The translations under genes were made by a program, and so were the position numbers. The notes under the pieces are model-generated. The model was not told the origin of the DNA. It worked only from the letters and a program-made list of their open reading frames with translations, and ran no database searches. 35,600 bases of DNA from Asaia bogorensis (GTDB lineage Bacteria > Pseudomonadota > Alphaproteobacteria > Acetobacterales > Acetobacteraceae), in the NCBI GenBank assembly GCA_945897825.1, contig CAMDGX010000047.1, positions 1 to 35,600 on the forward strand, given 5' to 3'. How positions within the stretch are numbered: the first letter of the stretch is position 1; each line of letters starts with the position of its first letter. Of this stretch, positions 9,406 through 34,340 are shown one piece after another.

Positions 9406-9531
9406 GGTTCTTTTTTGAAAAAAAGATCCAAAAAACTTTGTCCATTTGCACCGCGCCCGAGATGGATGGCGCGGTGCAAATGGATGAAAAGTCTTTTTGC
9501 TTCTTTTTCTTCAGAAAAAGAAGACTCTTGC
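9406..9531. repeat. Composite palindromic element, copy 1 (A-to-B orientation)
   Basis: From left to right: A/T hairpin A (TTCTTTTTT then AAAAAAGA), an A-tract, then a perfect 17-base inverted repeat with arms 9441-9457 (TCCATTTGCACCGCGCC) and 9468-9484 around a 10-base loop. A T-tract and hairpin B (CTTCTTTTTCT, TC, AGAAAAAGAAG) follow. It fills the gap between the convergent nagA and aldehyde dehydrogenase genes. A-tract, GC stem and T-tract occur on both strands, as in a bidirectional terminator. Copies 2-5 are listed separately. Confidence 0.9.
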
Positions 9532-9535
9532 GTTC

Positions 9536-10969
9536 TTAAAGCCCAGCCTGCGTCACGAACTTCGTGTTCAGATAGGCCTCGATCGCCTCTGTCCCGCCCT
9601 CGGACCCGTAGCCGCTGTCCTTGATCCCGCCGAACGGAACCTCCGGCAACGCCAGGCCCAGATGGTTGATCGTGTGCATCCCGCTCTCGACTGCATTGGC
9701 GATCGCATTCGCCGTCTTGGCCGAGCGCGTGAACGAATACGCCGCCAGCCCATAGGGCAGCCGGTTCGCCTCGCTCACCACCTCGTCGAAGTCCCGGAAC
9801 GGCACCATCAGCGCCAGCGGCCCGAACGGCTCCTCGTTCATGGCGCGCATCTCGGTGGTCAGGTTGGTCAGCACGGTCGGCTCGAAGAAATTGCCCTTGT
9901 TGCCGATCCGCTTGCCGCCGGTCTGGATCTCCGCGCCCTTCTGCACGGCGTCACCCACCAGCGCCTCCATGGCGGTGACGCGCCGCGCATTGGCCATCGG
10001 GCCCATGGTGGTGGAGGGATCCATTCCGTCGCCCACCTTCACCTTCTTGGCGACACCCACGAAGGTCTCGACGAACTTGTCGTACACGCCCTCATGCACC
10101 AGGAACCGCGTCGGCGACACGCACACCTGCCCGGCATTGCGGAACTTCGCCGCTCCGAGGATCCGCGCCGCCGCTTCCACGTCGGCATCCTCGAAGATCA
10201 TCGCCGGCGCGTGCCCACCCAGCTCCATCGTCACCCGCTTCATGTGCAGGCCCGCCAGCGCGGCAAGCTGCTTGCCCACGGCGGTCGAGCCGGTGAAGGA
10301 GATCTTCTTGATGATCGGATGCGGGATCAGATACTCGGAAATCTCCGACGGCACCCCATAAACCAGGTTCACCACCCCGGCCGGCACGCCCGCATCCACG
10401 AAGCAGCGGATCAGCTCGGCGCACGAAGCCGGCGTCTCCTCCGGCCCCTTCAGGATCACCGAGCACCCCGCCGCCAGCGCCGCCGATGTCTTGCGCACCG
10501 CCTGGTTGATCGGGAAGTTCCACGGCGTGAACGCGGCCACCACGCCCACGGGCTCCTTCACCACCAGCTGGTAAACCCCATCGGCCCGCGCCGGAATCAC
10601 CCGCCCATAGGCGCGCCGCGCCTCCTCGGCGAACCAGTCGATCACATCGGCCCCGGCGAGCGCCTCCATCTTCGCCTCGCCCACCGGCTTGCCCTGCTCG
10701 GTGGTCATCAACGCCGCGATCAGCTCGGCCCGCTCGCGCAGCAGGTTGGCCGCCTTGCGCATCACCTTGCTGCGCTCAAAGGCGTTCACCTTCCGCCACA
10801 CGTTGAACCCGCGCTCGGCGGCCTCCAGCGCCCGATCCAGGTCGGCCCGCTCCGCATGCGCCACCTTGCCCGCCGGCTCGCCCGTCGCCGGGTTCAGCAC
10901 CGTCAGGAAGCGCCCGGCCGCCGCCGGCCCCCAGGTGCCGTCGATCAACAGGGAAACATCGTTGTACAT
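9536..10969 (-). CDS. NAD(P)-dependent aldehyde dehydrogenase, succinate-semialdehyde dehydrogenase-like
   Basis: Aldehyde dehydrogenase of 477 residues. The general base is E249 in MELGGHAPA and the nucleophile is C283 in [24 protein letters not shown] and [11 protein letters not shown] form the cofactor-binding part, and EEPFGPLA and [11 protein letters not shown] the C-terminal motifs. The closest family is the GabD type, which oxidises succinate semialdehyde to succinate. Related members use glycolaldehyde or other semialdehydes, so the substrate is not fixed by sequence alone. Start ATG 10969 has AGGAG 6 bases upstream; a longer frame to 11077 lacks such a site. It stands alone, convergent with nagA across a repeat element and divergent from the first solute-binding protein. 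Confidence 0.88.
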
Positions 10970-11141
10970 CGTCTTCTCCTTGCAGCTGCCTCGCTCGGCT
11001 TCCCTCGATCTGGCGTTCCATCGCCCGCACGCCAAGGTGCCGAGCGTTATCCTTTCTCGGGAATAGCGAGTATCCACCGAACCACCCCGCCCGTCGAGAG
11101 GCCGCGGGCCCGCACCACAGCGTCACCGAACCGCAGCATGC

Positions 11142-11173
11142 CTGCCATCAAGCTGTCGCCTCCCGCGTAGTAC
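11142..11173 (+). promoter_or_regulatory. Putative Pho box and -10 upstream of the first binding protein
   Basis: CTGCCAT (11142-11148), a 4-base spacer and CTGTCGC (11153-11159) match the PhoB direct-repeat consensus (CTGTCAT, N4, CTGTCAC) at 12 of 14 positions with the correct 11-base period. TAGTAC (11168-11173), 8 bases further on, could be the -10 hexamer, the usual arrangement for PhoB-activated promoters. The next ATG is 11211. The match is seen; PhoB binding is inferred. Confidence 0.5.
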
Positions 11174-11210
11174 CCCGCCGCCATCGCCATTGGCACGAGG
11201 TCCTATCCCC

Positions 11211-12776
11211 ATGCTCAAGATTCCCCGCCGCGCGGCCCTCGGCCTCGCCGCCGCCGCCCTGCCCCGCATCGCCATCGCCCAGTCCGACCCACGGCCCGTC
11301 GTCACCGTCGCGGTCCAGAACATGTCGACCTCCAACACGCTGGAGATGCTGCGCGAGCAGTCCAACGTCGGCACCCGCATCTTCCGCAACTACGTCGAGC
11401 CGCTGATCGACACCGACTGGATCGGCGATATGTCGATGATCCCGGGCCTGGGCACCGCCTGGCGCCGCATCGACGACCAAACCGTGGAGTTCGACCTGCG
11501 CGAAGGCGTCACCTTCCACAACGGCGACCGCTTCACCGCCGAGGAAGTCGCCTTCTCCTTCGGCCCCGAGCGCATGTGGGGCGGCGGCGCGCGCGAGGTG
11601 CCCACCCCGTCGATCGCCAATGCCCGCCGCGCCTTCCCCGGCTTCGACCGCATCGAGATCCTCGGCCCGCACCGCATCCGCGTCATCAGCAAGGTGCCGG
11701 ACATCGTGCTGGAAGGCCGCATGGCCCGCAGCCTCGCCGTCATCGCCAACCGCCGCAGCTTCATGGAAGCCGGCAGCTGGATGGAATGGGCGCGCCGCCC
11801 CATCGGCACCGGCCCCTACCGCATCGCCGAGTTCCGCCCGGACCAGTCGCTGGTCATGGAGTCGCACGACGCCCATTGGCAGGGCCGCCCGCCGATCCGC
11901 CAGCTCCGCTTCGCCGAGGTGCCCGAGGTCAGCTCGCGCATCAACATGCTGCTCTCCGGCGCCACCGACTTCGCCACCGAAATCCCGCCCGACCAGATCC
12001 CCACCATCGAGCGTGACCGCCGATTCGAAGTCGTCGGCGGCCCGATCAACAACTCGCGCTACCTGGTCTTCAACAAGTCCCACCCGTCGCTGGCCAACCC
12101 GCTGGTCCGCCGCGCCATGTCGCACAGCATCGACCGCGAGGCGATCATCGCCGCCCTCTGGGCCGGCCGCACCACCGTGCCGCGCGGCCTGCAATGGGAG
12201 TTCTACGGCGAGATGTATCTCCGCGACATCGAGGTCCCCCGCTTCGACCCCGCCGAGGCCCGCCGCCTGCTGCGCGAAGCCGGCTACCGCGGCCAGCCGA
12301 TCCCCTATCGCTGCCTGAACAACTACTACACCAACCAGACCCCCACCGCCCTGATCATGCTCGAAGGCTGGCGCGGCATCGGCCTGAACGTCGAGCTGCA
12401 AATGGTCGAGAACTGGAGCCAGATCACCGGCGGCGCGCCCGAAACCCGCGGCGTGCACGACTGGTCCGCCTCCGCCGTGGTGCCCGATCCGTCGATCCAG
12501 ATGTCCGCCTCCTGGGGCCGCACCGGCCAGCCCTGGCTTGCCAACCAGTGGCGCAACGAGGAGTTCGGCGACCTCGCCGCCGAGCTGGAAACCAGCATGG
12601 ACCAGCCCCGCCGCATCGCCGCCTGGCGCCGCATGCTGGAAATCGTCGAGCGCGAGGACCCCGGCTACGTCGTGCTGCACCGCAACGCCGCCTTCGTCGC
12701 CAAGCGCCGCGACATCGCCTGGCGCGCCTCGCAGTCCTTCTTCATGGATTTCCGCGGCAGCAATTTCACCAGCTAG
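11211..12776 (+). CDS. ABC transporter solute-binding protein, family 5 (paralogue 1)
   Basis: Periplasmic binding protein of 521 residues, SBP family 5 (DppA/OppA type). It has an N-terminal export signal with paired arginines (MLKIPRRAALGLAAAALPRIAIAQ, likely cut after AIAQ). Conserved family segments are EGVTFHNGDRFTAEEV, RPIGTGPYRIAEFRP and DAHWQGRPPIRQLRF. I chose ATG 11211, which begins the signal peptide; a TTG at 11190 would add 7 residues. It is the first of three close paralogues in this locus and shares blocks such as EVPEVSSRIN, PPDQIP and RGLQWEFYG with them. A Pho-box-like site lies about 50 bases upstream. Family-5 proteins bind peptides, opines, nickel chelates or sugars; the neighbouring phosphodiesterases suggest a phosphate ester here, which is inference. 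Confidence 0.87.
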   Translation: MLKIPRRAALGLAAAALPRIAIAQSDPRPVVTVAVQNMSTSNTLEMLREQSNVGTRIFRNYVEPLIDTDWIGDMSMIPGLGTAWRRIDDQTVEFDLREGVTFHNGDRFTAEEVAFSFGPERMWGGGAREVPTPSIANARRAFPGFDRIEILGPHRIRVISKVPDIVLEGRMARSLAVIANRRSFMEAGSWMEWARRPIGTGPYRIAEFRPDQSLVMESHDAHWQGRPPIRQLRFAEVPEVSSRINMLLSGATDFATEIPPDQIPTIERDRRFEVVGGPINNSRYLVFNKSHPSLANPLVRRAMSHSIDREAIIAALWAGRTTVPRGLQWEFYGEMYLRDIEVPRFDPAEARRLLREAGYRGQPIPYRCLNNYYTNQTPTALIMLEGWRGIGLNVELQMVENWSQITGGAPETRGVHDWSASAVVPDPSIQMSASWGRTGQPWLANQWRNEEFGDLAAELETSMDQPRRIAAWRRMLEIVEREDPGYVVLHRNAAFVAKRRDIAWRASQSFFMDFRGSNFTS

Positions 12777-12876: not shown

Positions 12877-14427
12877 ATGAACAAACGCAACGTGCTGCTG
12901 ATCGTCGTGGATCAGTGGCGAGCCGACCACGTGCCGCACCTGGGTGCCACCCACCTGCGCACCCCGAACCTCGATCGCCTTTGCCGCGCCGGGGTCACCT
13001 TCCGCAACCACGTCACCACCTGCGTGCCCTGCGGCCCCGCCCGCGCCAGCCTGCACACCGGCCTCTACCTGATGAACCATCGCCAGGTGCAGAACTGGAT
13101 CCCGCTCGACGCCCGCCACACCACCCTGCCCCGCGCCATCCGCGCCTGCGGGCTCGACCCCGCGCTGATCGGCTACACCACCACGGTGCCCGATCCGCGC
13201 ACCACCCACCCCAACGACCCGCGCTTCCAGAACCTCGGCGACATGATGGAAGGCTGGCGCCCGGTCGGCGCCTTCGGCCCGGGCCACGAGGCCTATTTCG
13301 GCTGGCTGGCCCAGAAGGGCTTCCCGCTCCCGAAGAACCGCGAGGAAATCTGGCTGCCCGAGGGCGAGGACGCGCTTCCAGGCGCCACCGCCCGCCCCGC
13401 CCGCATCCCGAAGGAGCTCTCCGACAGCACCTTCTTCACCGAGAAGGCGATGGAATACCTGAAGGGCCGCGACGGCCGGCCCTTCTTCCTCCACCTCGGC
13501 TACTACCGCCCCCACCCCCCCTTCGTGGTCAGCGCCCCCTACCACGACATGTACCGCCCGCAGCACATGCCCCGCCCCGTCGCCGCCCCCACCCCGGAGG
13601 CAGAGGCCGCCCAGCATCCCCTGCTCGGCCACTACCTGCGCCATACCCGCCAGGCCAGCTTCTTCACCGGCGGCCAGGGCATGATCGCCGAGATGGACCA
13701 GGCCACCATCGCCCAGATGCGCGCCACCTATTGCGGCATGATCGCCGAGGTCGACGACAACATCGGCCGCGTCCTCGACCTGCTGGAACAGACCGGCCAG
13801 ATGAAGGACACGCTGATCATCTTCACCTCCGACCACGGCGAGCAGCTCGGCGACCACCACCTCGCCGGCAAGCTCGGCTACCACGACGAGAGTTTCCGCA
13901 TCCCGCTGGTCATCGTCGACCCCGACGCCCCGGAACAGGCCGGCCGCATCGAGGACGCGCCGACCGAGAGCATCGACCTGATGCCGACGATGATCGACTG
14001 GCTCGGCGGCGACGTGCCCCGCGCCTGCGACGGCCGCTCCCTGCGCCCCCTGGTGCTCGACATGAAGCCCGCCGACTGGCGCACCGAGCTGCACTACGAA
14101 TACGACTTCCGCGACACCTTCCACTCCCGCGCCGAAACCGAGCTCGGCCTGCACATGGACGAATGCACCCTGCTCGTCGTCCAGGACGCGAAGTGGAAAT
14201 ACGTCCACTTCACCACCCTGCCCCCGCTGCTGTTCGACCTCGAGGCCGATCCCGGCCAATTCACCAACCTCGCCGACAGCCCCGACCACGCCGCCATCGT
14301 CCGGGACTACGCCCAGAAGGCGCTGTCCTGGCGCATGTTCCACGCCGACCGCACCCTCACCCACTACCGCGCCTCGCCGAACGGCCTCGAACGCCGCATC
14401 CCGACCGCGAACGGAGAGAAAGCATGA
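12877..14427 (+). CDS. pehA: Phosphonate monoester hydrolase / phosphodiesterase (alkaline phosphatase superfamily)
   Basis: Protein of 516 residues, close to the 514 of characterised Rhizobium and Burkholderia phosphonate monoester hydrolases. It resembles them throughout: NVLLIVVDQWRAD, NHVTTCVPCGPARASLHTGLYLMNHR, FFLHLGYYRPHPPF, TSDHGEQLGDHH and AQKALSWRMFHADRTLTHYR. C52 in C-G-P-A-R is the sulfatase-type cysteine expected to become formylglycine; D12 and D319/H320 are metal ligands. These enzymes cleave phosphonate monoesters and phosphodiesters, with some sulfatase side activity; their natural substrate is unknown. No signal peptide is visible, so it should act in the cytoplasm on imported substrate. 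ATG 12877 is preceded by GCGAGGACTCGA. It overlaps the next binding protein by four bases. A formylglycine-generating enzyme must be encoded elsewhere. Confidence 0.92.
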   Translation: MNKRNVLLIVVDQWRADHVPHLGATHLRTPNLDRLCRAGVTFRNHVTTCVPCGPARASLHTGLYLMNHRQVQNWIPLDARHTTLPRAIRACGLDPALIGYTTTVPDPRTTHPNDPRFQNLGDMMEGWRPVGAFGPGHEAYFGWLAQKGFPLPKNREEIWLPEGEDALPGATARPARIPKELSDSTFFTEKAMEYLKGRDGRPFFLHLGYYRPHPPFVVSAPYHDMYRPQHMPRPVAAPTPEAEAAQHPLLGHYLRHTRQASFFTGGQGMIAEMDQATIAQMRATYCGMIAEVDDNIGRVLDLLEQTGQMKDTLIIFTSDHGEQLGDHHLAGKLGYHDESFRIPLVIVDPDAPEQAGRIEDAPTESIDLMPTMIDWLGGDVPRACDGRSLRPLVLDMKPADWRTELHYEYDFRDTFHSRAETELGLHMDECTLLVVQDAKWKYVHFTTLPPLLFDLEADPGQFTNLADSPDHAAIVRDYAQKALSWRMFHADRTLTHYRASPNGLERRIPTANGEKA

Positions 14428-16067
14428 CCCGCCTGACCCGCCGCGCCGCCCTGCGCACCCTGGGGGCCGGCACCGCCGGCCTCGCCGCCACCACCGCCCT
14501 GCCCCGCTTCGCCATCGGCCAGGCCGACAACCGGCCGACCATCACCGTCGCCGTGCAGAAGATCAGCAACACCAACACGCTCTCGGCCCTGCGCGAGCAA
14601 TCCAACGTCGGCACCCGCCTCGCCGCCCTGGTCACCGAGCGGCTGATCGACCTCAACTACCAGTCCAAGCTGGAACCCGTCCCGGGCCTGGCCACCAGCT
14701 GGAAGCGCATCAGCGACACCACGGTGGAATTCAAGCTGCGCCAGGGCGTCAAGTTCCACAACGGCACCACGCTCACCGCCGAGGACATCGCCGGCAGCTT
14801 CTCGCCCCAGCACATGTTCGGCGAAACCCGCCCCACCGTGCGCGGCCAAACCATCCCGCTCAGCAACACCAACCCCGCGGTGTTCACCAAGGAACTGATC
14901 CGCGACGTCCCCCCCGTCGCCCGCCGCATGTGGCCGGCGCTGGAGAAGGTCGAGATCGTCGACAAGGAGACGGTCCGCTTCGTCAACGCCGCCCCCGACG
15001 TCACCATCGAGGGCCGCGCCAGCGTCCGCGGCAGTGACATCGTGAACTTCCAGGCGTTCAACGACTCGCCCTCATGGCTCGAATACGCCCGCAAGCCGGT
15101 CGGCACCGGCCCCTACAAGGTGCGCGAGTTCCGCCCCGACACCTCGCTGATCCTCGATGCGCACGACGAATACTGGGGCGGCCGCCCGCCCATCAAGGCG
15201 CTGCGCTTCCTCGAGGTGCCCGAGGCCTCCTCGCGCATCAACGGCCTGCTCTCAGGCGAATACCATTTCGCCTCCGACGTCTCGCCGGACCAGATCCCGC
15301 AGATCGAGCGCAACCCCGCCTTCGAGGTGCAGCAGAGCCTGGTGCCGAACCACCGCCTGATCGTGTTCGACAAGCACCACGCCCCGATCCGCGACCCGCG
15401 CATGCGCCGCGCCATGACCCATGCCATCGACCGGCAGGCGATCGTCGATGCCCTGTGGGGCGGGCGCACCACCGTGCCGCGCGGCCTGCAATGGGACTTC
15501 TATGCCGACATGCTGATCCAGGACTGGACCGTGCCGAAATACGACCCCGCCCTGGCCCGCCAGTTGATCAAGGAGGCCGGCTACAAGGGCGACCCGATCA
15601 CCTTCCGCGTCGCCCCCGGCTACTACACCAACCAGGCCCCGACCTCGCAGGTGCTGGTGGAGATGTGGAAGCAGGTCGGCCTCAACGTCCAGATCCAGAT
15701 GGTCGAGAACTGGACCCAGATCTTCGCCCGCGGCCCCGAGCGCGGCGTGCGCGACTGGTCCAACTCCGCCAACTTCAGCGACCCGGTTTCCTCCATCGTC
15801 AACCAGCACGGCCCGAACGGCCAGCAGCAGCAGATGGGCGAGTGGACCAACGATGAGATGAACAAGCTGACGGTGGAACTGGAAAGCAGCACCGACCGCG
15901 CCCGCCGCCGCCAGGTCTTCGCCCGCATGCTGGAAATCTGCGAACGCGAGGACCCCGCCTACACCGTCCTGCACCAGACCGCGGTGTTCATCGCCAAGCG
16001 CAAGGAACTGAAGTGGAAGGCTGCCCCCAGCTTCGCCATGGATTTCCGCGCCCACAACTGGGGGTAG
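14424..16067 (+). CDS. ABC transporter solute-binding protein, family 5 (paralogue 2)
   Basis: Protein of 547 residues. The Tat-like signal peptide has T-R-R-A-A-L-R followed by a hydrophobic stretch to ALPRFAIGQA, so export in folded form is likely. The mature part is an SBP family 5 fold with RQGVKFHNGTTLTAEDI, KPVGTGPYKVREFRP, DAHDEYWGGRPPIKALRF and SSRINGLLSGEYHFA. It is close to paralogue 3: both have an extra stretch around residues 135-175 (ETRPTVRGQ... or DTRPTVDGK..., ending PPVARR) that paralogue 1 lacks. ATG 14424 overlaps the stop of the hydrolase, so hydrolase and binding protein are made together; GGAGAG is upstream. The stop is followed immediately by a repeat element that separates it from paralogue 3. 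Confidence 0.88.
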   Translation: MTRLTRRAALRTLGAGTAGLAATTALPRFAIGQADNRPTITVAVQKISNTNTLSALREQSNVGTRLAALVTERLIDLNYQSKLEPVPGLATSWKRISDTTVEFKLRQGVKFHNGTTLTAEDIAGSFSPQHMFGETRPTVRGQTIPLSNTNPAVFTKELIRDVPPVARRMWPALEKVEIVDKETVRFVNAAPDVTIEGRASVRGSDIVNFQAFNDSPSWLEYARKPVGTGPYKVREFRPDTSLILDAHDEYWGGRPPIKALRFLEVPEASSRINGLLSGEYHFASDVSPDQIPQIERNPAFEVQQSLVPNHRLIVFDKHHAPIRDPRMRRAMTHAIDRQAIVDALWGGRTTVPRGLQWDFYADMLIQDWTVPKYDPALARQLIKEAGYKGDPITFRVAPGYYTNQAPTSQVLVEMWKQVGLNVQIQMVENWTQIFARGPERGVRDWSNSANFSDPVSSIVNQHGPNGQQQQMGEWTNDEMNKLTVELESSTDRARRRQVFARMLEICEREDPAYTVLHQTAVFIAKRKELKWKAAPSFAMDFRAHNWG

Positions 16068-16071
16068 GAAA

Positions 16072-16193
16072 GAGTCTTCTTTTTTCTGAAGAAAAAAGAA
16101 GCAAAAAAGACTTCATCCATTTGCGCCGTGACAAATCCGGCAGCCACGGTGCAAATGGACAAAGTTTTTTGGTTCTTTTTTTCAAAAAAGAAC
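16072..16193. repeat. Composite palindromic element, copy 2 (B-to-A orientation), inside the operon
   Basis: Hairpin B is a perfect 12-base stem (16076-16087 with 16090-16101, loop GA). The central stem pairs 16116-16130 (TCCATTTGCGCCGTG) with 16145-16159, all Watson-Crick except one G-U. It is extended outward by ACTT/AAGT and an A-tract/T-tract pair. Hairpin A is a perfect 10-base stem (16172-16181 with 16184-16193, loop TC). The element lies between two co-directional binding-protein genes, 18 bases before the ribosome-binding site of the second. Confidence 0.92.
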
Positions 16194-22368: not shown

Positions 22369-22415
22369 TTTTTATTCCTATATCGGAATGAATTGGCCGC
22401 GGTGAGGCGAAGCGG

Positions 22416-24227: not shown

Positions 24228-24258
24228 GGACGCCGGAAGCCTCAGATCGGAAGCCCCC

Positions 24259-24348
24259 TCGTTTTCCCAAGAAATAAAGACTCCATTCGTCTGCGAGACC
24301 ACGACCATCGCGCAGACGAATGGAGGATTTACGTTTCTATCAAGAAAT
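24259..24348. repeat. Decayed copy of the composite palindromic element; likely terminator
   Basis: The centre is a perfect 15-base inverted repeat, CTCCATTCGTCTGCG at 24281-24295 with its complement at 24311-24325. It is flanked on the left by TTTC-CCAA-GAAA and AAAGACT and on the right by ATTTACG and TTTCT-ATCA-AGAAA. Order, spacing and the AAGACT/CCATT and AATGG junctions match the intact elements in B-to-A orientation, but the A/T hairpins are much shorter. On the minus strand the stem is followed by TCTTTATTTCTT, so it should terminate the M20 hydrolase gene, whose last codons lie within its right hairpin. Confidence 0.65.
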
Positions 24349-25566: not shown

Positions 25567-25584
25567 GGGGTTCTCCGAAGGAAG

Positions 25585-25693
25585 AATCTTCTTTTTCTGA
25601 AGAAAAAGAAGCAAAAAGACTTTTCATCCATGGCGCCGGGAGAGCATGGCGCCATGGGGGAAAGTTTTTTGTTTCTTTTTTTCAAAAAAGAAC
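25585..25693. repeat. Composite palindromic element, copy 3 (B-to-A orientation)
   Basis: Hairpin B is a perfect 11-base stem (25588-25598 with 25601-25611, loop GA). The central stem pairs CCATGGCGCC (25628-25637) with GGCGCCATGG (25648-25657). Hairpin A is a 9-base stem (25673-25681 with 25684-25692, loop TC). The central sequence differs from copies 1, 2 and 5, yet its arms remain perfectly complementary. It fills the gap between two minus-strand genes, the binding protein and the M20 hydrolase. Confidence 0.9.
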
Positions 25694-25700
25694 GCCTTGC

Positions 25701-27206: not shown

Positions 27207-27300
27207 CGCCGGTTCCTTTTTCGTGTTCCGCGATGGATGCAAGCATGCCGTGCGTTCTGCGCACAGGGGGTTTGTGCGATGCAGCGGGGATACTGATGCG

Positions 27301-27774
27301 ATGAGCGAGACGAAACGGACCGAGATCTACGTGGATGCCGATGCCTGCCCGGTGCGCGATGAGATCTATCGCGTGGCGGGGCGGCTGGGGCTGGTGGTGC
27401 ACCTGGTGTCGAACGGGTCGCGGCCGATTCGTCCGCCGGGGATGGCGAATGTGCGGATGGTGGTGGTGGAGGCGGGGGCGGATATCGCCGATGACTGGAT
27501 CGCCGAGCGGGTGACGGCGGCCGATGTGTGCGTGACGTCGGATATTCCGCTGGCGGCGCGGTGCCTGGCGAAGGGGGCGCGGGCCTTGGCGAGCAACGGG
27601 CGGGTGTGGAGCACGGACAATATCGGCAATGCGCTGGCCGGGCGCGAGGTGTCGCGGCACATGCGGGAGATGGGGATGATGACGGGGGGGCCGGCGCCGT
27701 TGGCGAAGGCGGATCGGTCGAAGTTTCTCTCGGCGCTGGATACGCTGGTGCAGGCGGCGCTGCGGGGGCGGTGA
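27301..27774 (+). CDS. yaiI: YaiI/YqxD family (DUF188) protein
   Basis: Protein of 157 residues with the conserved YVDADACPV N-terminus, VSNGSRPIRPP, AADVCVTSDIPLAARCLAKGA and SNGRVWSTDNIGNALAGRE, which define the YaiI/DUF188 family. The acidic residues suggest a PIN-like, metal-dependent nuclease fold, but the function is not established. ATG 27301 is divergent from the solute-binding protein gene. Its stop lies one base from the stop of the convergent cysK, with no room for a terminator. Confidence 0.92.
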   Translation: MSETKRTEIYVDADACPVRDEIYRVAGRLGLVVHLVSNGSRPIRPPGMANVRMVVVEAGADIADDWIAERVTAADVCVTSDIPLAARCLAKGARALASNGRVWSTDNIGNALAGREVSRHMREMGMMTGGPAPLAKADRSKFLSALDTLVQAALRGR

Positions 27775-27775
27775 G

Positions 27776-28774
27776 CTAGAGGCCGGCGAACAGGGCGGTG
27801 GAGAGGTAGCGTTCGGCGAAGCTGGGGGCGATGGCGACGATGAGCTTGCCGGCATTGGCGGGGTCGCGGGCGAGGTCCATGGCGGCGTGCAGGGCGGCGC
27901 CGGAGGAGATGCCGAGGGGGAGGCCCTCGACCTGGGCGCAGAGGCGGGCGGCGGCGATGGCTTCGCGTTCGGAGACGCGCAGCACGGTGTCCATCAGGGC
28001 GAGGTCGAGCACGGCGGGCTGGAAGCCGGGGCCGATGCCTTGCAGGCCGTGCGGGCCGGGTTCGTCGCCGGAGAGGACGGCAGATTCGGTGGGCTCGATG
28101 GCGATGACCTGGAGGGTGGGGCGGCGGGGCTTGAGGGCGCGGGCGATGCCGGTCAGCGTGCCGCCGGTGCCGGCGCCGCCGATGACGATGTCGACCAGGC
28201 CGTTGGTGTCGGCCCAGATTTCCTCGGCGGTGGTGGCTTCGTGGATGGCGGGGTTGGCCGGGTTGTCGAACTGGCGCGGCATCCAGGCGCCGGGGGTTTG
28301 GGCGACGATGCGTTCGGCCTCGGCGATGGCGCCGGCCATGCCTTCGCGGGCGGGGGTGAGTTCGACCTGTGCGCCCATCAGGCGGAGCATCTTGCGGCGT
28401 TCGACCGAGGCGCCCTCGGGCATGCAGACGATCAGGCGGTAGCCGCGGGCGGCGGCGACGAAGGCGAGCGCGATGCCGGTGTTGCCGCTGGTGGGTTCGA
28501 CCAGGATGGAACGGTTCGGCGCGATGGTGCCTTCGGCCTCGGCGGCGTCGATCATCGCCAGGCCGATGCGGTCTTTCACGGAGCCGAGCGGATTGAAGAA
28601 TTCGAGCTTCAGCGCGACGTCGCCCACCAGGCGCTCGGCGGCGGTGAGGCGGGGGATGCGGACCAGGGGGGTGGCGCCGATGGTTTCCAGCACGCTGGCG
28701 TGGATGCGGCCCCGGAAGGATGCGCTGGCGTGGGAGACAGGCGGGGCGGCGGCCGGGAGCGGGGGACGGGTCAT
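27776..28774 (-). CDS. cysK: Cysteine synthase A (O-acetylserine sulfhydrylase)
   Basis: Pyridoxal-phosphate enzyme of 332 residues that makes L-cysteine from O-acetylserine and sulfide. The Schiff-base lysine is K67 in FFNPLGSVKDRIG; PTSGNTGIAL binds the carboxylate, GAGTGGTLTG binds the cofactor phosphate, and GISSGAAL supplies the PLP nitrogen contact. The N-terminus is about 20 residues longer than most CysK (family start near GRIHASVLETIGATPLV). No ribosome-binding site precedes ATG 28774, but TATAGC (28786-28781) sits 6 bases upstream, so the mRNA may be leaderless. It is divergent from an Rrf2 regulator gene. CysM-type or cystathionine beta-synthase-like activity is less likely. Confidence 0.92.
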   Translation of the reverse strand: MTRPPLPAAAPPVSHASASFRGRIHASVLETIGATPLVRIPRLTAAERLVGDVALKLEFFNPLGSVKDRIGLAMIDAAEAEGTIAPNRSILVEPTSGNTGIALAFVAAARGYRLIVCMPEGASVERRKMLRLMGAQVELTPAREGMAGAIAEAERIVAQTPGAWMPRQFDNPANPAIHEATTAEEIWADTNGLVDIVIGGAGTGGTLTGIARALKPRRPTLQVIAIEPTESAVLSGDEPGPHGLQGIGPGFQPAVLDLALMDTVLRVSEREAIAAARLCAQVEGLPLGISSGAALHAAMDLARDPANAGKLIVAIAPSFAERYLSTALFAGL

Positions 28775-28927
28775 GCGTCGGCTATAGCACGCAGATCGGT
28801 GCTTTACACGTCCGCTGGTCGTGGTTTAGTGCGCCGCACCCGGGCCGCGTCGCCGCGATGCCGGCCGGGGCAACCATACAAACGCCCCAATGCGGGCGGA
28901 CGGGGACGGACCACCGAGGGAACCGAC

Positions 28928-29377
28928 ATGCTGATCCGCAAGGACCGGGCCATGCTTGCCATCACCATCCTGCTGGACGTCGCCTTCCATGGCGGGCGGA
29001 CTGCGACCGTGAGCGCCGCGGACCTTGCCGAGCGGCTGGGGCTGGCGCGGCGGGGGATGGAACCGCTGTTGCAGACGCTGTCGCGGGCGGGGTTGCTGGA
29101 GAGCGTGCGCGGGCCGCGCGGCGGGTATCGGCTGGGGCGACCGCGGCGGGACATCCGGCTGTCGGACATCGTGGCGGTGGTGAGCGGCGACGACGGCGAG
29201 GCGGTGGATGGGCCGGGAGGTGCGTTGCAGGAGAAGGTGGTCGATCCGCTGTGGGCGAAGCTGGAGACGACGGCGCAGGGGGTTCTGGCGGGGCTGACGC
29301 TGGACGACATGGTGCGCCAGGCGACGGCTTCGGGGCTGCGGCGGCCGAACGCGGAGCCGATCACGTTTGCGATCTAA
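28928..29377 (+). CDS. Rrf2-family transcriptional regulator
   Basis: Protein of 149 residues with an N-terminal winged helix (AMLAITILLDVAFHGG, then AADLAERLGLARRGMEPLLQTLSRAGLLESVRGPRGGYRLGRP), the Rrf2 signature. It has no cysteine, so it cannot carry the three-Cys iron-sulfur cluster of IscR or NsrR. It resembles the cluster-free CymR type, which in Firmicutes senses cysteine status through CysK. Its position divergent from cysK, 153 bases away, supports a role in sulfur or cysteine control. ATG 28928 has GAGGGA upstream. It heads a four-gene plus-strand run with the MBL-fold, glutamine synthetase-like and isochorismatase-like genes. Confidence 0.88.
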   Translation: MLIRKDRAMLAITILLDVAFHGGRTATVSAADLAERLGLARRGMEPLLQTLSRAGLLESVRGPRGGYRLGRPRRDIRLSDIVAVVSGDDGEAVDGPGGALQEKVVDPLWAKLETTAQGVLAGLTLDDMVRQATASGLRRPNAEPITFAI

Positions 29378-29457
29378 GCGTCCCCGCGGCGAAGCGTGTC
29401 GGGTGGACAGCGTGCGCCGGCGCCGGTAAGGCCGGGGGCGACCGGCTGGAGAACAAG

Positions 29458-30129
29458 ATGTCCGACTACCGACTGGCGATCGTTCCCGTCACGATGTTCC
29501 AGCAGAACTGCACCGTGCTGTGGCATACCGGGACGAAGCGCTGCGTGATCGTCGATCCCGGCGGGGAGCCGGGGCGGATCCTGGACGTGCTGGTGCAGCA
29601 GGAATTGCAGGCCGAGACGATCCTGCTGACGCATGGGCACCTGGACCATGCCGGCGGGGCGCTGGCGACCAAGGGGACGATCGACCTCGACTATGTCGGG
29701 CGGGGCTGGGACACGGTGCCGATCGTGGGGCCGGACGAGCGCGACCGCTTCCTGCTGGACGGCATCGAGGCGCAGGCGGAGCAGCTGGGCCTGCCGGGGC
29801 TGCGCAACGTGACGCCGGACCGGTTCCTGGTGGAGGGCGACACGGTCGAGACGATCGGGCTGACCTTCGAGGTGCTGCACTGCCCCGGCCACACGCCCGG
29901 GCATATCGTGTTCGTGGAGCGGACGCTGCGGCTGGCGTTCGTGGGCGATGTGATCTTCCGCGGCTCGGTGGGGCGGACGGATTTTCCCTATGGCGACGGG
30001 GCGGCGCTGATCGCGGGGATCAAGCAGAAGCTGCTGCCCCTGGGCGACGACATGAATTTCATCTGCGGCCACGGCGAGGGCTCGACCCTGGGCGTCGAGC
30101 GGCAGCGCAACCCGTTCCTGCAGGGCTGA
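29458..30129 (+). CDS. Metallo-beta-lactamase-fold hydrolase (glyoxalase II-like)
   Basis: Protein of 223 residues with the metal motif T-H59-G-H61-L-D63-H64, a downstream CPGHTPGHIVF histidine, FVGDVIF with the bridging Asp, and GHGEGSTLGVERQRNPFL at the C-terminus. These features are those of the YcbL/GloB-like group, which hydrolyses thioesters such as S-lactoylglutathione or related compounds. The protein is shorter than true GloB and lacks its C-terminal helical glutathione domain, so the substrate is open. ATG 29458 has GGAGA 5 bases upstream. It lies 80 bases after the Rrf2 gene and 16 before the glutamine synthetase-like gene. Confidence 0.85.
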   Translation: MSDYRLAIVPVTMFQQNCTVLWHTGTKRCVIVDPGGEPGRILDVLVQQELQAETILLTHGHLDHAGGALATKGTIDLDYVGRGWDTVPIVGPDERDRFLLDGIEAQAEQLGLPGLRNVTPDRFLVEGDTVETIGLTFEVLHCPGHTPGHIVFVERTLRLAFVGDVIFRGSVGRTDFPYGDGAALIAGIKQKLLPLGDDMNFICGHGEGSTLGVERQRNPFLQG

Positions 30130-30145
30130 GGAAAGGATCGACGCC

Positions 30146-31402
30146 ATGAACCGCGAGCCGCTGATCATGGTCTGCACCTGCGAAATGGCCGGGCGGGTGC
30201 GGGGCAAGGGGTTCCCGGCGCGCGAGCTGCCGGGGCGGATGGCGCGCGGCGTGGGCTGGGTGCCGACGAATGCGATGATCAACGCGTTCTCGACCATTCC
30301 CGCGACGCCGTTCGGCACCGGCGGCGACCTGATCCTGGTGCCCGACCCCGCCAGCGAGGTGGAGGTGGATTTCGCCGACGGGTCGGCCAAGGAGCATTTC
30401 CTGCTGGGCGACCTGCGCTGGCTCGACGGCACGCCGTGGGAGCTGTGCCCGCGCGATTTCCTGCGCCGGGCGCTGGCGGCGCTGAAGGAGGCGGCGGGGC
30501 TGTCGCTGGTGGCGGCGTTCGAGCACGAGTTCACCTATACGGGCGTCGATGAGGCGCCGGGCAGCCCGTATTCGCTGGATGCGTTCCGGCGGCAGGGGGT
30601 GTTCGCGGAGGCGTTCATGGCGGCGCTGCGGGCGGCGGGGTGCGAGCCGGACAGCTTCATGGCCGAGTATGGCGCGCGGCAATACGAGTTCACCGTGGAC
30701 GTGGCCGAGGGCGTGCGCGCGGCGGACCGGGCGGTGGTGGCGCGCGAGATGGCGCGGGCGACGGCGCACCGGCTGGGGCATCGGGCGATCTTCTCGCCGA
30801 TCCCCGACCCGGCGGGGGTGGGCAACGGGGTGCACATCCATTTCAGCTTCAAGGACGCGGCCGGGGCGCCGGTGATGCATGATCCGGCGGGGGCGCATGG
30901 CTTGTCCGACGTGGCGCGGGCGTTCGTGGCGGGCATCCTGCACCACCAGCCGGCGCTGTGCGCGCTGACAGCGCCGGCGACGGTTTCGTATCTGCGGCTG
31001 CGGCCGAACCGCTGGGCGCCGACGCATGCCAACCTGGAGCAGCAGGACCGCGGGGCGGCGTTGCGCATCTGCCCGGTGCTGCCGGGGGGCGATGTCGCGC
31101 GGCAGTTCAACGTGGAGTATCGCGTCGCCGATGGCGCTGCCTCGCCGTATGTCGCGCTGGCGGCCGTGGTGTGGGCCGGGGTGGACGGCATTCGCCGCGG
31201 GCTGGCGATTCCGGAGGAGGGCCCTGCCCTGCCGGCGACGCTGGAGGAAGCGCTCGATGCGCTGGCGGCGAGCGATGCTGCCAAGACCTGGATGGGCGAG
31301 AGCTTCCATGGCGCCTACCTGTTGCACAAGCGCGGCGAGGCGGCCCTGATGGCGGGGCTGACCGAGGCCGAACAGTGCGCGCGCTACGCGGAGACTTATT
31401 GA
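30146..31402 (+). CDS. Glutamine synthetase-like ligase
   Basis: Protein of 418 residues in the glutamine synthetase superfamily. Metal and ATP-site segments are AAFEHEFTYTG, AEYGARQYEFTVDV, VGNGVHIHFSFKD, TVSYLRLRPNRWAP and FNVEYRVADGAASPYVALAA. The last block usually reads E-x-R, and here the residues are E-Y-R. The N-terminus (VCTCEMAGRVRGKGFP) differs from GlnA, and the adenylylation-site loop of GlnA was not recognised. The enzyme therefore probably joins glutamate, or another carboxylate, to an amine, as gamma-glutamylpolyamine or gamma-glutamylamide ligases do. ATG 30146 has GGAAAGGA 6 bases upstream. It is followed after 37 bases by an isochorismatase-fold hydrolase. Confidence 0.82.
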   Translation: MNREPLIMVCTCEMAGRVRGKGFPARELPGRMARGVGWVPTNAMINAFSTIPATPFGTGGDLILVPDPASEVEVDFADGSAKEHFLLGDLRWLDGTPWELCPRDFLRRALAALKEAAGLSLVAAFEHEFTYTGVDEAPGSPYSLDAFRRQGVFAEAFMAALRAAGCEPDSFMAEYGARQYEFTVDVAEGVRAADRAVVAREMARATAHRLGHRAIFSPIPDPAGVGNGVHIHFSFKDAAGAPVMHDPAGAHGLSDVARAFVAGILHHQPALCALTAPATVSYLRLRPNRWAPTHANLEQQDRGAALRICPVLPGGDVARQFNVEYRVADGAASPYVALAAVVWAGVDGIRRGLAIPEEGPALPATLEEALDALAASDAAKTWMGESFHGAYLLHKRGEAALMAGLTEAEQCARYAETY

Positions 31403-31416
31403 GCGCGCTTGCGCGC
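31403..31416 (+). repeat. Small GC hairpin at the end of the glutamine synthetase-like gene
   Basis: GCGCGC, TT, GCGCGC: a perfect 6-base stem starting right after the TGA. There is no T run, so it is not a typical terminator. It may mark an intercistronic RNA processing point before the next gene. Confidence 0.35.
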
Positions 31417-31439
31417 GACGACCTAATAAGGAACGACCG

Positions 31440-32093
31440 ATGGCCAACCTGCCGCATCCCGATACGCGCGACCTTCCGGTCGACAAGCCGCACACCACGC
31501 TGCTGTTCATCGACGTGCAGAACTACTGCGCACGGCGCGACGGCAGCGAGTTCGCGCACATGTCCAAGGAGCAGTTCGACCGCGAGCTGGGCTGGTTCTT
31601 CGACAGGTTCGAGTCCGAGACGCTGCCGAACATGCAGAAGCTGCAGGCAGGGTGCCGGGCGGCGGGGATCGAGGTGATGTACACCATCATCCGCAACCTG
31701 ACGCAGGACGGGCGCGACCGGTCGCTCGACTACAAGATCACCGGGTTCAGCGTGCCGCCCGATTCGTGGGACGGGCAGGTGCTCGATGCGATCAAGCCGG
31801 GGCCGGACGAGATGGTGATCCCGAAGACGTCGTCGAACGTATTCGTCTCGACCAACCTCGACTACGTGCTGCGCAACCTTTCCACGAAGCACTTGGTGAT
31901 TTCGGGGATCGTGACCGACCAGTGCGTGGCCTCGGCGACGATGACGGCGTGCGACCTCGGCTATCTCGTGACGCTGGTGACGGATGCCTGCGCGACCTAC
32001 ACGCAGGAGCGGCACGACGCGACGCTGAAGGCGATCAAGGGGTATTGCCGGCAGCGGACGACGGCGGAATTCCTGGCCGAGATCCGGGGGTAG
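31440..32093 (+). CDS. Isochorismatase-family cysteine hydrolase
   Basis: Protein of 217 residues with the catalytic triad D25 (LLFIDVQNYC), K129 (VIPKTSSNVF) and C162 (GIVTDQCVASA), the last in the cis-peptide context typical of the family. Members hydrolyse amides or ureides (nicotinamide, N-carbamoylsarcosine, biuret, ureidoacrylate) or isochorismate. The Cys nucleophile points to an amidase rather than a true isochorismatase. Together with the glutamine synthetase-like ligase just upstream it may release and re-assimilate nitrogen from an amide compound; this is inference. ATG 31440 has AAGGAA 7 bases upstream. It is convergent with cutC, 15 bases away. Confidence 0.87.
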   Translation: MANLPHPDTRDLPVDKPHTTLLFIDVQNYCARRDGSEFAHMSKEQFDRELGWFFDRFESETLPNMQKLQAGCRAAGIEVMYTIIRNLTQDGRDRSLDYKITGFSVPPDSWDGQVLDAIKPGPDEMVIPKTSSNVFVSTNLDYVLRNLSTKHLVISGIVTDQCVASATMTACDLGYLVTLVTDACATYTQERHDATLKAIKGYCRQRTTAEFLAEIRG

Positions 32094-32108
32094 AAGCGGC
32101 GCCCGGCC

Positions 32109-32849
32109 TCAGGCGCGGGCGGCGGCGATGACGGCGCGCACGCGGGCGGGGTCGGTGACGGTGTGGCGGTATTCGCGCTCCTTGTCGTCGCCGCCCATGG
32201 CGAGGGCGGGGTTGCGGTAGCGCATGGCGCTGGCGATCGTCGCCGGGGCGGAGAAGTGGAGCTCGGCGAGGCCGGCAATGCGGCGGACCTGGGCGATGGT
32301 GGCTTCGTCGAGGTCGCCGCAGCCGAGGATGGTGATGCGGCCGGCGGCCTGGCGCACCAGGCGGGCAAGCAGGGGCGCACCGTCGATGCCGCGCGGGCGC
32401 TGGCCGCTGGTCAGCACGCGGCCGACGCCGCATTCGATGAGGGTTTCGAGCGCGGCTGCGGGATCGGCGGTCATGTCGAAGGCGCGGTGGACGGTGGTCG
32501 AGAGCGGGCCGGCGGCCTGAACAAGGGCGCGCGTGCGGGGCGCGTCGATGGCGCCGTCGGGCGTGAGGCAGCCGAACACCACGCCGGCCGCGCCGGTCTC
32601 GCGGATGGCGGCGACATCGTCGCGCATGGTGGCGAATTCGCGCTCCGAGTAGAGGAAGTCGCCGCCGCGGGGGCGGACCATGACCATGACCGGGACGCGC
32701 ACGGCGGCGACGGTGGCGCGGATGGTGGCGAGGCTGGGGGTGATGCCGCCTTCGATGAGGCTGGCACAGAGTTCGATGCGGTCGGCCCCGGCCTCGGCGG
32801 CGGCGATGGCGTTGTCGATGCCTTCGACGCAGAGTTCGATCAGGGGCAT
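32109..32849 (-). CDS. cutC: Copper homeostasis protein CutC
   Basis: Protein of 246 residues with a TIM-barrel fold. Family segments are IELCVEGIDNAIAAAEAGADRIELCASLIEGG, VMVMVRPRGGDFLYSE, GVVFGCLTPDGAIDAPRTRAL, TVHRAFDM and RVLTSGQRPRGIDGA. CutC was linked to copper tolerance in E. coli, but its biochemical activity is unclear. ATG 32849 has GGAG 6 bases upstream. It is the last gene of a minus-strand series, after the M20 peptidase and repeat copy 4. No other copper gene is nearby. Confidence 0.92.
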   Translation of the reverse strand: MPLIELCVEGIDNAIAAAEAGADRIELCASLIEGGITPSLATIRATVAAVRVPVMVMVRPRGGDFLYSEREFATMRDDVAAIRETGAAGVVFGCLTPDGAIDAPRTRALVQAAGPLSTTVHRAFDMTADPAAALETLIECGVGRVLTSGQRPRGIDGAPLLARLVRQAAGRITILGCGDLDEATIAQVRRIAGLAELHFSAPATIASAMRYRNPALAMGGDDKEREYRHTVTDPARVRAVIAAARA

Positions 32850-32873
32850 GGAGCACTCCAGGAAAGGAAGCAT

Positions 32874-32992
32874 GTTCTTTTTTGAAAAAAAGAACCAAAA
32901 AACTTTTCCGACTTTGCGCGGGGGCTAGCTTCGGCGGAAAGTCGGAAAGTCTTTTTTGCTTCTTTTTTCTTCAGAAAAAAGAAGATTCTTGC
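32874..32992. repeat. Composite palindromic element, copy 4 (A-to-B orientation)
   Basis: Hairpin A is a perfect 10-base stem (32874-32883 with 32886-32895, loop GA). The central stem pairs TTCCGACTTT (32906-32915) with AAAGTCGGAA (32938-32947), with a further three pairs inward after one mismatch. Hairpin B is a perfect 12-base stem (32959-32970 with 32973-32984, loop TC). The central sequence is unlike the CCATTTGC type of other copies. It lies between cutC and the M20 peptidase and is inverted relative to copy 5. Confidence 0.9.
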
Positions 32993-32993
32993 T

Positions 32994-34196
32994 TCAGGGC
33001 GCTACACCTGCGACGGCGAGGATGGCGGTGAGGCCGGCGGCCATGCCCTTGACGGAGTTGGTTTTCTCCACGTCGATCCACTCGTCGAGCGAATGGCCGC
33101 GGCCGCCGGTGCCGCCGGAGCCGATCTTCACGGCGGGGATGCCGAGGCTCATCGGGATGTTGGCGTCGGTGCTGGAAAAGACGTGCTTCACCTCGAAGCC
33201 ATGCGCCTTCAGGGCGGCGGTGCTGTGGGAGACGATGTCGGTGTCCATCGCCGTCGAGCCGGCAGGGCGGTCGCCGATGAGCTTGGCCTCGACGGTGATT
33301 TCGCCCTGGGCGATGGAGCGGGCGTGGTTCTCGGCGGCGGCGGCCTGCTGCACGATGGCGAGGAAGCGGTTCTCCAGGCGGGCGAGTTCGGCCGGCGCCT
33401 CGGAGCGCAGGTCGACCTCCACCCACACTTCGTTCGGGATAGAGTTCACGCTGGTGCCGCCGCCGAAGACGCTGGCGCTGAAGGTGGTTTTCGGCTTGGC
33501 GGGGACGGCGATGCGGGAAAGCTCCAGCATGGCCTGGCTCATGGCGAAGGCGGGCGAGACCAGGCCGAAGGCACCGAAGCTGTGGCCGCCGGGGCCGCGG
33601 AAGGTGGCGCGGTAGCGCTTGGAGCCGACGCCGCCGACGACCAGGCCCTCCATGTCGGGCGAGTCGACGGTGAAGAAGGCGTCGATGCGGCCCTTGTACT
33701 TGCCCTCGGAGAACAAATGGCGGATGCCGCGCAGATCGCCCAGGCCCTCCTCGCCGACGTCGCCGACGAACAGGATGTCGGCGTTGGTGCGCACTCCGGC
33801 GGCATCCAGCGCGCGAATGTAGGCCAGGAGGACGGCGAGGCTGCGAGTGTCGTCGCCGACGCCCGGCGCGTGGAGCTTGGTGCCCTCGCGGCGGACCTTC
33901 ACGTCGGTGCCGGCGGGGAAGACGGTGTCGAGATGGGCGGCGACGACGATCAGGCGGCCGTTGCCGGCGCCGCGGCGCACGCCCATGGCGTTGCCGATGC
34001 CGTCCAACTCGACGTCCTCAAGGCCGTGGGCGTGCAGCATCTCCAGGTAGTGCGCGGCCTTGGGGGCCTCTCCGAACGGGGGGGCGGGGATTTCAGTGAG
34101 GGTGATGATGTCGGCGACCGTGCGGTCATGCTCGGCGTCGAGCACGTCCACGATCTTGCGGTAGGCGGGGGAGTGCATGATCTCGGCGACGGTCAT
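32994..34196 (-). CDS. M20-family metallopeptidase (peptidase T-like)
   Basis: Zinc peptidase of 400 residues. Metal and catalytic residues are H88 and D90 in AAHLDTVF, D115 in PGVGDDTRS, E149/E150 in GDVGEEGLGD, a later Asp in FFTVDSPDMEG, and a histidine in GGRGHSLDEW. The middle lid domain has FRGPGGHSFGAFG. The fold and motifs match the M20 peptidase T/M42-like group of aminopeptidases and carboxypeptidases that act on short peptides in the cytoplasm. Substrate specificity is not evident. ATG 34196 has only a weak ribosome-binding site. The gene is bracketed by repeat copies 4 and 5 in opposite orientation. Confidence 0.85.
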   Translation of the reverse strand: MTVAEIMHSPAYRKIVDVLDAEHDRTVADIITLTEIPAPPFGEAPKAAHYLEMLHAHGLEDVELDGIGNAMGVRRGAGNGRLIVVAAHLDTVFPAGTDVKVRREGTKLHAPGVGDDTRSLAVLLAYIRALDAAGVRTNADILFVGDVGEEGLGDLRGIRHLFSEGKYKGRIDAFFTVDSPDMEGLVVGGVGSKRYRATFRGPGGHSFGAFGLVSPAFAMSQAMLELSRIAVPAKPKTTFSASVFGGGTSVNSIPNEVWVEVDLRSEAPAELARLENRFLAIVQQAAAAENHARSIAQGEITVEAKLIGDRPAGSTAMDTDIVSHSTAALKAHGFEVKHVFSSTDANIPMSLGIPAVKIGSGGTGGRGHSLDEWIDVEKTNSVKGMAAGLTAILAVAGVAP

Positions 34197-34220
34197 CTGG
34201 AGCTCTCTGGCGAAAGGAAG

Positions 34221-34340
34221 GATTCTTCTTTTTCTGAAGAAAAAGAAGCAAAAAGACTTTATCCATTTGCGCCGTGCTTGACGGATCAGCCCCGGCGCAA
34301 ATGAGGGGAAGTTTTTTGGTTCTTTTTTTCAAAAAAGAAC
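34221..34340. repeat. Composite palindromic element, copy 5 (B-to-A orientation)
   Basis: Hairpin B is a perfect 11-base stem (34225-34235 with 34238-34248, loop GA). The central stem pairs CATTTGCGCCG (34264-34274) with CGGCGCAAATG (34293-34303). Hairpin A is a perfect 10-base stem (34319-34328 with 34331-34340, loop TC). It fills the gap between the VWA gene and the M20 peptidase gene, both minus. Confidence 0.92.

Follow-up and report, generated by a model that had tools for sequence, protein, structure and literature searches.

The repetitive extragenic palindromic (REP) sequences and bacterial interspersed mosaic elements (BIMEs) of enterobacteria are palindromic and extragenic, and lie at gene 3′ ends and between the genes of operons; in this they resemble the repeat family described here, an element of about 120 bases with five copies in a 35,600-nucleotide (nt) stretch of Asaia bogorensis DNA (GenBank assembly GCA_945897825.1, contig CAMDGX010000047.1, positions 1 to 35,600 of the forward strand; hereafter the window). 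The passages of Bertels and Rainey (2011, PMC3116915) considered here, which also name the enterobacterial REP and BIME repeats, describe REPINs as REP doublets that form hairpins. Within the part of a further source used here (PMC3733652), repeats of the CGTC class are stated to be missing in Acetobacteraceae, the family that includes Asaia. In E. coli, according to the sections of PMC6060812 drawn on here, inverted repeats are enriched directly after stop codons and are mostly parts of intrinsic terminators.

We read the Asaia element as a REPIN-like dispersed palindrome at stop codons that may form bidirectional transcript ends by acting as a partial intrinsic terminator, and we give this reading about an even chance. 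A previous description of the window, made from its letters alone (the sequence-only reading), had reported the five copies as three-hairpin elements, and all five were found again by a scripted pattern search, which detected five two-hairpin clusters and no single hairpins in the window. The stop-codon rule, the rule of unlike ends and the purine-rich (SAAG)n flanks outside each hairpin, all reported below, were absent from that description.

Architecture of the element

The copy statistics are based on the window and 40 other stretches (41 in total, 811,007 nt, 70% GC; L-numbers denote stretches), which hold 92 two-hairpin copies, that is, 184 strand-copies. Read inward from either side, a copy shows an (SAAG)n flank (the flank profile was built from 183 flanks), a hairpin, then CAAAAAACTTT or CAAAAAGACTTT, and then the stem. 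The hairpins are of the types GTTCTTTTTTGAAAAAAAGAAC (A), CTTCTTTTTCTGAAGAAAAAGAAG (B) and CTTCTTTTTGTGAACAAAAAGAAG (C), or differ little from them. All are A/T hairpins, with the T-arm outside, a UGNA loop and the A-arm inside; inward of the hairpin, each end continues with an A-tract and CTTT, and the two ends are inverted repeats around a central stem whose sequence drifts. The ends of one copy tend to be of unlike types: two G-type (A) ends were found in none of the 92 copies, against 18.5 expected and a lowest value of 10 in 10,000 shuffles, and two C-type ends in 9, against 27.5 expected.

Among 193 hairpins, the terminal pair was CG in 109, GC in 83 and mismatched in 1, and the loop-closing pair was TA in 86, CG in 77, GC in 26 and mismatched in 4. 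This variation is almost only of the compensated kind, and represents a few inherited types, not 193 independent events. When 33 copies, picked from the 92 by similar length and intact hairpins, were aligned, the A- and T-tracts were almost invariant, and RNAalifold recovered both outer hairpins and a 10-pair basal stem of A-tract and T-tract. For a hand-written structure of three helices, 90.3% of the cells were paired, compared with 61.5% and 62.5% when it was slid by -1 and +1 column, and with 88.5% after re-dealing the 3′ letters. Both-sided changes were present in 13 of its 48 pairs, 12 of them in the central helix, and this was matched by 4 of 500 shuffles.

Position at stop codons and gene context

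A copy was faced by 121 gene 3′ ends. The hairpin was 3-17 nt away from 107 of these, contained the stop of 6 and was farther from the other 8. The distance from a copy to gene starts ranged from 8 to 1280 nt, and in convergent gaps both sides were usually tight to the hairpin. As a placement control in tandem gaps of at least 150 nt, a random 117-nt block fell 3-17 nt past the stop in 27 of 94 cases, in comparison with 31 of 35 for the real copies. The stop codon adjoining a copy was TAA in 51, TAG in 34 and TGA in 22 of the 107 cases, whereas stops elsewhere were TGA in 431, TAG in 163 and TAA in 40 of 634 (P = 1.5e-24 for the TAA difference). Typically, the stop is formed across the junction with the element, as T+AAG, TAG+SAAG or TGA+AG.

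When sorted by gap, 36 copies were convergent, 49 tandem and 6 divergent, and 1 was at a stretch edge. Occupancy was 36 of 115 convergent gaps, 49 of 502 tandem gaps and 6 of 115 divergent gaps (Fisher P of 2.7e-7 for convergent versus divergent, and 3.5e-8 for convergent versus tandem). This excess in convergent gaps, together with the symmetry of both strands and the presence of A/T tracts in stretches of 70% GC, could also suit an element that works at the DNA level, whose A/T palindromes would form cruciforms, or serve as binding sites for gyrase or a nucleoid protein, to handle the supercoils of convergent transcription. We regard this as improbable, since such an element would need neither to keep strictly to about 10 nt from the stop codon nor to have a stem that drifts and yet stays paired.

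The same positions bear on a REP/BIME-like element that would stabilise or process RNA, its hairpins blocking 3′-5′ exonucleases or setting intercistronic cleavage, with no termination. Such an element would sit behind stops, even inside tight gene pairs with no room for a promoter, and its hairpin and stem pairing would be conserved, as was observed; a half-element at L131:10334-10355, placed 33 nt ahead of an AAA-domain gene (Pfam AAA_2) that we take to be HslU (by eye, the name not coming from the Pfam match), is also in line with it. Pairing, however, needs no pure A- or T-tracts in stretches of 70% GC, yet the tracts are near-invariant, and the convergent excess is what a terminator predicts. 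We therefore hold the stabiliser to be unlikely, although it keeps an appreciable share of the probability.

Pairing kept while sequence changes

The left and right halves of a copy's own core pair more strongly with each other than permuted halves do (-21.3 versus -16.9 kcal/mol in 85 copies, after exclusion of 5 unparsed and 2 too short; 0 of 10,000 permutations were as low), and the effect persisted for the inner part of the core (79 copies, z of -6.9). At least 15 symmetric central pairs were present in 90 of the 92 copies, and at least 20 in 77, while shuffled-core controls reached 59% and 39%, respectively. The sequence-only reading had the central arms of every copy complementary. This is mostly so, as a tendency, but not for each copy, because the upper stem is imperfect in many of them and the own right half has a median rank of about 22 among all 85 right halves.

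The orthologous copies gave a second view of the same pairing, in seven same-genus genomes (the host and six others) that offer few sites, related species and pairs that are not independent. Of 32 unique orthologue pairs parsed (14 rows were unparsed), 2 were flipped, with A and B swapped, and the 30 non-flipped pairs showed 97.0 and 97.1% identity in the hairpins, 95.6 and 93.0% in the linkers, and 68.6% in the core. For a smaller set of 16 pairs, these values were 97.9 and 97.8%, 92.0 and 91.5%, and 56.9%. Swapping arms between orthologous copies weakened the pairing from -22.7 to -17.8 (31 pairs, Wilcoxon P of 2e-4), with 18 pairs weaker, 9 equal and 4 stronger. The clearest compensatory example is the site of copy 2 in the window, where the arms are GATGCGGA/TCCGCATC in the relative G033 and GAGGCGGA/TCCGCCTC in G171. 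Together, the permutations and the orthologue arm swaps support the earlier proposal that structure is kept through sequence change.

Number and distribution of copies

In the host genome (G000; 4.93 Mb, 208 contigs, assembly 96.7% complete), a pattern of end plus tract detected 690 element ends (340 in forward and 350 in reverse orientation), while its reversed form, used as a control, detected none. Assuming two ends per copy, the host holds about 345 copies. A palindromic hairpin pattern gave 704 hairpins in the host, again with 0 for its reversed form. The sequence-only reading had named the lack of further host copies, or further copies with non-complementary central arms, as the outcomes that would speak against it; hundreds more were found, and their central arms mostly pair.

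In the 41 stretches, the hairpin regular expression had 198 matches, far more than expected by chance, compared with 1 in the same sequence reversed, and these fell into 92 two-hairpin clusters and 14 single-hairpin ones (106 in all). Upon a relaxed search, a degenerate partner was seen to adjoin 6 of the 14 single hairpins. High copy number and inverted pairs between convergent genes are also known for DNA uptake signals that double as terminators in Neisseria and Pasteurellaceae, for which the part of PMC1852404 considered here provides a precedent. Here, the repeat unit is a hairpin of 22-26 nt plus a tract, in contrast to a signal of about 9-11 nt, 184 of the 198 hairpins are paired up, and a gene 3′ end is likewise no more than 21 nt away from 13 of the 14 single hairpins; an uptake signal is thus a most improbable explanation.

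Among 200 Acetobacteraceae genomes, 71 had at least one hairpin match and 26 had at least 100, and copy number was uneven inside genera, with 14, 476 and 1211 in the genus g49 as an example. Ends with an AAGGAAG flank were found in all nine same-genus genomes examined (the host and eight others). Thirty loci from family genomes were inspected, and many showed the same ends and flanks; two hairpins were detected by the strict regular expression in 9 of them, the nine loci with a known genome assignment were all from other genera, and three (L162, L171 and L172) had a hairpin-like match only. In a class-wide set of 289 genomes, which included the host and three other family members, the strict end-plus-tract pattern matched only the host and, once, G363.

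Two loci deserve mention on their own. A metagenome-assembled genome labelled Acidobacteria (L009, CAJCIS010000257.1) contains the closest ParE-like match (79%) and carries copies of the element, so its label is probably wrong. The nearest named ParE-like relatives are from Pseudoroseomonas (74% identity), a genus of the Acetobacteraceae, in agreement with a host from this family. At L156:18457-18480, a lone hairpin has flanks on both sides, GGAAGGATT[hairpin]CGCTTACTTCC, and resembles a solo remnant or a minimal unit.

Filled and empty orthologous sites

The sequence-only reading had suggested that orthologous gaps with and without the element be compared, and both kinds were found. Seventeen own sites with a two-sided orthologue gave 43 unpolarised comparisons, 23 of them filled, 12 empty and 8 other; 7 sites were filled wherever compared, 7 were empty in at least one relative and 3 were only of the other kind. 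Filled and empty sites were taken from the window, L127, L128, L122 and L136, and a gap below 80 nt without a hairpin was counted as empty. The gap orthologous to copy 2 contains the element in G033, G119 and G171. In G119, this site (window 16076) has hairpins A and B swapped, and the element was either flipped or independently inserted. At the site of copy 4, G033 is filled, while G119 and G171 are empty, and at that of copy 5, G033 and G485 are filled, G119 is empty and G171 has an unrelated insert of 1.2 kb. At the convergent site L127:10799, G033 has TGACCCTCA, with 3 nt between the stops, and 63 nt separate the anchors in G119. A divergent gap, L136:16289, is the seventh empty site, and it is less clean in G489. 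At L128:8354, the filled site has a TAA stop, G033 and G171 have TGA, and G119, where the gap is longer and different, has TAG. When filled and empty sites were compared by eye, no clear target site duplication of the kind that marks classical MITEs was apparent; the flanks of these pairs are about 80-90% identical.

These data bear on a purely selfish mobile palindrome without a host role, for which the placement at 3′ ends would merely mean that insertions there do the least damage or that stop codons are preferred as targets. The mixture of filled and empty gaps, the uneven counts within genera and the frequent formation of the stop codon at the junction all suit this explanation. Against it, the near-identity of hairpins and tracts between orthologues, set beside a core at 69%, is not expected of a dead insert, and the host has no Y1 transposase. 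Likewise, no fresh copies were seen, given that the nearest-copy identity was at most 0.84 among 81 cores of the sampled stretches, compared with one another. In our view, this explanation is rather improbable. The sequence-only reading had also offered a non-autonomous mobile repeat; the dispersal it implies agrees with the presence or absence of the element at orthologous gaps, but no transposase was identified.

Another kind of palindromic repeat (CTCCGTGCCTCCGTG..GGTGAA), which has the same GGAAG/CTTCC-like borders, was noticed in the G033 and G171 gaps that are orthologous to window 25585, and as half-elements at L122:16078 and L127:18614. It is as if two unrelated 3′-end palindromes had one border type in common. 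Under a strict pattern, no CACGGAG-type sister repeat with at least two full units was found in our own stretches, and half units were later noticed by eye. A further repeat, AGAGCAATATCCGACCGGATGGAATCATCCGGTCGGAAGATTTGCGTTCTC and its variants, occurs in the convergent gaps L120:19390, L135:8087, L143:2041 and L146:16436.

Proposed role at transcript ends

The order of A-tract, stem and T-tract in both directions, the near-invariant tracts and the placement at gene ends suggest that the element marks transcript ends on both strands. RNA made from either side would contain the stop codon, (SAAG)n, the first hairpin, the A-tract, the central stem and the U-tract, and would go on to a second U-run, which the T-arm of the far hairpin supplies. 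We propose that this arrangement would be a partial intrinsic terminator that sets 3′ ends on both strands, one that is decisive where genes converge and that, inside operons, works as a leaky attenuator or an intercistronic stabiliser. The first hairpin may guard the terminator, by stopping its own A-arm from pairing with downstream U-runs, and such a role would explain the rarity of ends of the same type. In a transcript ending at the first U-tract, the first hairpin is predicted to fold locally in 171 of the 184 strand-copies. The element would have been moved through the genome by an enzyme.

Several observations weigh against this proposal. When the whole element is folded, the minimum-energy structure is a long rod and not three hairpins in 142 of the 184 strand-copies, and once the second U-run is transcribed, the first hairpin is predicted to pair with the U-runs in 124. 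We nevertheless favour the three-hairpin form over the rod, since unlike ends put mismatches in the rod and leave both local hairpins paired. RNAalifold left the variable core open, with both-sided change in only 1 of 29 pairs and a covariation term of no more than -0.31. The two hairpins of tandem copies are equally intact (45 of 49 each), whether or not they face a gene 3′ end; the selection of copies by intact hairpins biases this count. Left and right flanks did not covary (-8.19 within copies, -8.79 when permuted); for this reason, an outer helix closing a cloverleaf through the GGAAG/CTTCC flanks was dropped. A simple terminator scan of positions 20000-35600, which hold three copies, gave 14 hits versus 8.7 expected, and just 3 were inside copies; such simple promoter and terminator scans were not informative.

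Other points against it come from the genes. Their calls were made with a purpose-made codon-usage gene finder. The bidirectional terminator put forward by the sequence-only reading is favoured by the gene context, but 29 of the 49 tandem copies are within 40 nt of the next start. This leaves no room for a promoter, so the downstream gene must rely on read-through and the element cannot be a complete stop everywhere. Moreover, in the empty relatives of the tandem sites at window 32874 and 34225, L128:8354, L128:14125 and L128:19358, the genes overlap (GTGA) or are 7-11 nt apart, indicating that a copy splits a tight gene pair. Finally, six copies are between divergent genes, and as one of these sites, L128:1784, also has the element in G033 and G171, they are not all errors of gene calling, which speaks against a pure gene-end role.

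A wider proposal, which we put forward tentatively and consider possible at best, is that these elements are mobile 3′-end modules independent of RAYT (REP-associated tyrosine transposase). Their (SAAG)n ends would make a new stop (T+AAG) at the junction, and they could thereby insert exactly where a reading frame ends, separate gene pairs that overlap or are closely spaced, give each gene a two-way transcript end and, over time, re-partition operons across the family.

Copies in the window

The five copies and their gene contexts are listed in Table 1, with the position of each copy given from outer hairpin to outer hairpin. The pairing of the outer hairpins stated in the sequence-only reading holds in general, but two of the five A hairpins, those of copy 1 (GTTC..GATC at 9407-9428) and copy 3 (TTTC..GAAC at 25672-25693), contain a single mismatch. 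Its 2-base loop is correct as the centre of the DNA palindrome; RNA would form a tetraloop there, with the sequence UGAA or, from the other strand, UUCA. The window has three SBP_bac_5 genes, the first two in tandem, and the element is found behind the first and third, not behind the second. An open reading frame at 11211-12776 resembles these genes by eye.

Table 1. Coordinates, parts and gene context of the copies and flanks in the window
Feature	Position	Strand	Parts	Context
Copy 1, A-first	9407-9523		Hairpin A 9407-9428 (one mismatch), A-tract/stem/T-tract 9429-9499, hairpin B 9500-9523	Convergent: Amidohydro_1 gene (+, ends 9396) and Aldedh gene (-, ends 9536)
Copy 1, left outer flank, (SAAG)n-type	9397-9406	+		Mirror-image flank at 9524-9535
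Copy 2, B-first	16076-16193		Hairpin B 16076-16101, centre 16102-16171, hairpin A 16172-16193	Tandem: behind TAG of SBP_bac_5 gene (14424-16067, +), 28 nt ahead of SBP_bac_5 gene (16222-17847, +)
Copy 2, outer flank	16068-16075	+	TAG-GAAAGAGT	Directly after the TAG stop
Copy 3, B-first	25588-25693		Hairpin B 25588-25611, centre 25612-25671, hairpin A 25672-25693 (one mismatch)	Tandem, minus strand: SBP_bac_5 gene (25701-27206) and Peptidase_M20 gene (24340-25566)
Copy 4, A-first	32874-32984		Hairpin A 32874-32895, centre 32896-32958, hairpin B 32959-32984	Tandem, minus strand: Peptidase_M20 gene (32994-34196) and CutC gene (32109-32849)
Copy 5, B-first	34225-34340		Hairpin B 34225-34248, centre 34249-34318, hairpin A 34319-34340	Tandem, minus strand: VWA_CoxE gene (34354-35532) and Peptidase_M20 gene (32994-34196)
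Copy 5, outer flank	34341-34353	-	TAA-GGGAAGAAAGCAC (minus strand)	Directly after the TAA stop of the VWA_CoxE gene

Comparison with known systems

No Rfam family matched the window above its curated gathering threshold, and a permissive Rfam scan of copy 2 gave 48 matches, all below gathering scores and mostly eukaryotic microRNAs. In open-literature searches aimed at the family or the sequence, no paper was recognised as describing the element. An integron attC site was rejected, because RYYYAAC/GTTRRRY core sites were present at the ends of 0 of the 92 copies.

With bidirectional intrinsic terminators, including those of Neisseria that contain uptake signal sequences, as described in the part of PMC1852404 considered here, the element shares the A-tract, stem and T-tract on both strands and the convergent excess. 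It goes beyond them in having an extra A/T hairpin on each side, in being a high-copy stereotyped repeat, in its junction stops and in its placement inside tight gene pairs. The post-stop inverted repeats of E. coli are a class, in the sections of PMC6060812 used here, whereas the element is one dispersed repeat family.

The likeness to REPINs, as these are presented in the passages of PMC3116915 considered here, is closer. Both have inverted conserved palindromic ends and a less conserved spacer that still pairs through compensatory changes; both are extragenic, occur in hundreds of copies and are of similar size (segments of 71 and 110 bp were modelled there); and in both, doublets dominate and singlets look like remnants. 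In our data, this corresponds to the 92 two-hairpin clusters among 106, with spacer pairing beyond permutation. The element differs in lacking a RAYT and head tags, in its A/T-rich ends of unlike types, and in being tied to stop codons, while REPIN doublets are described in the same passages as random in extragenic space. Within 14 nt of each outer edge, GTAG was found in 0 and CGTC in 1 of the 92 copies, and the sequence comparison with enterobacterial REP consisted of these two head tags. The Y1 transposase/RAYT family (PF01797) had 0 matches in the host genome, at its 96.7% completeness. At an E of 1e-3, it was found in 4 of 15 high-copy relatives and 1 of 11 low- or zero-copy ones, some of these assemblies being 85-90% complete. 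An origin from RAYT or IS200-IS605 was therefore not favoured, with PF01797 absent from the host and no clear tie to copy number.

If our reading is correct, this repeat family rewrites stop codons and transcript ends genome-wide, and the filled and empty sites within the same gene pairs would be a natural experiment for the effect of a terminator-like insert on operon expression. The element would also be a simple landmark of gene 3′ ends for annotating Acetobacteraceae genomes. It works as a REPIN-shaped element and is not filed as a REPIN, owing to the absence of a Y1 transposase and tags and to its non-random placement; it would represent a second, transposase-orphan solution to the REPIN design.

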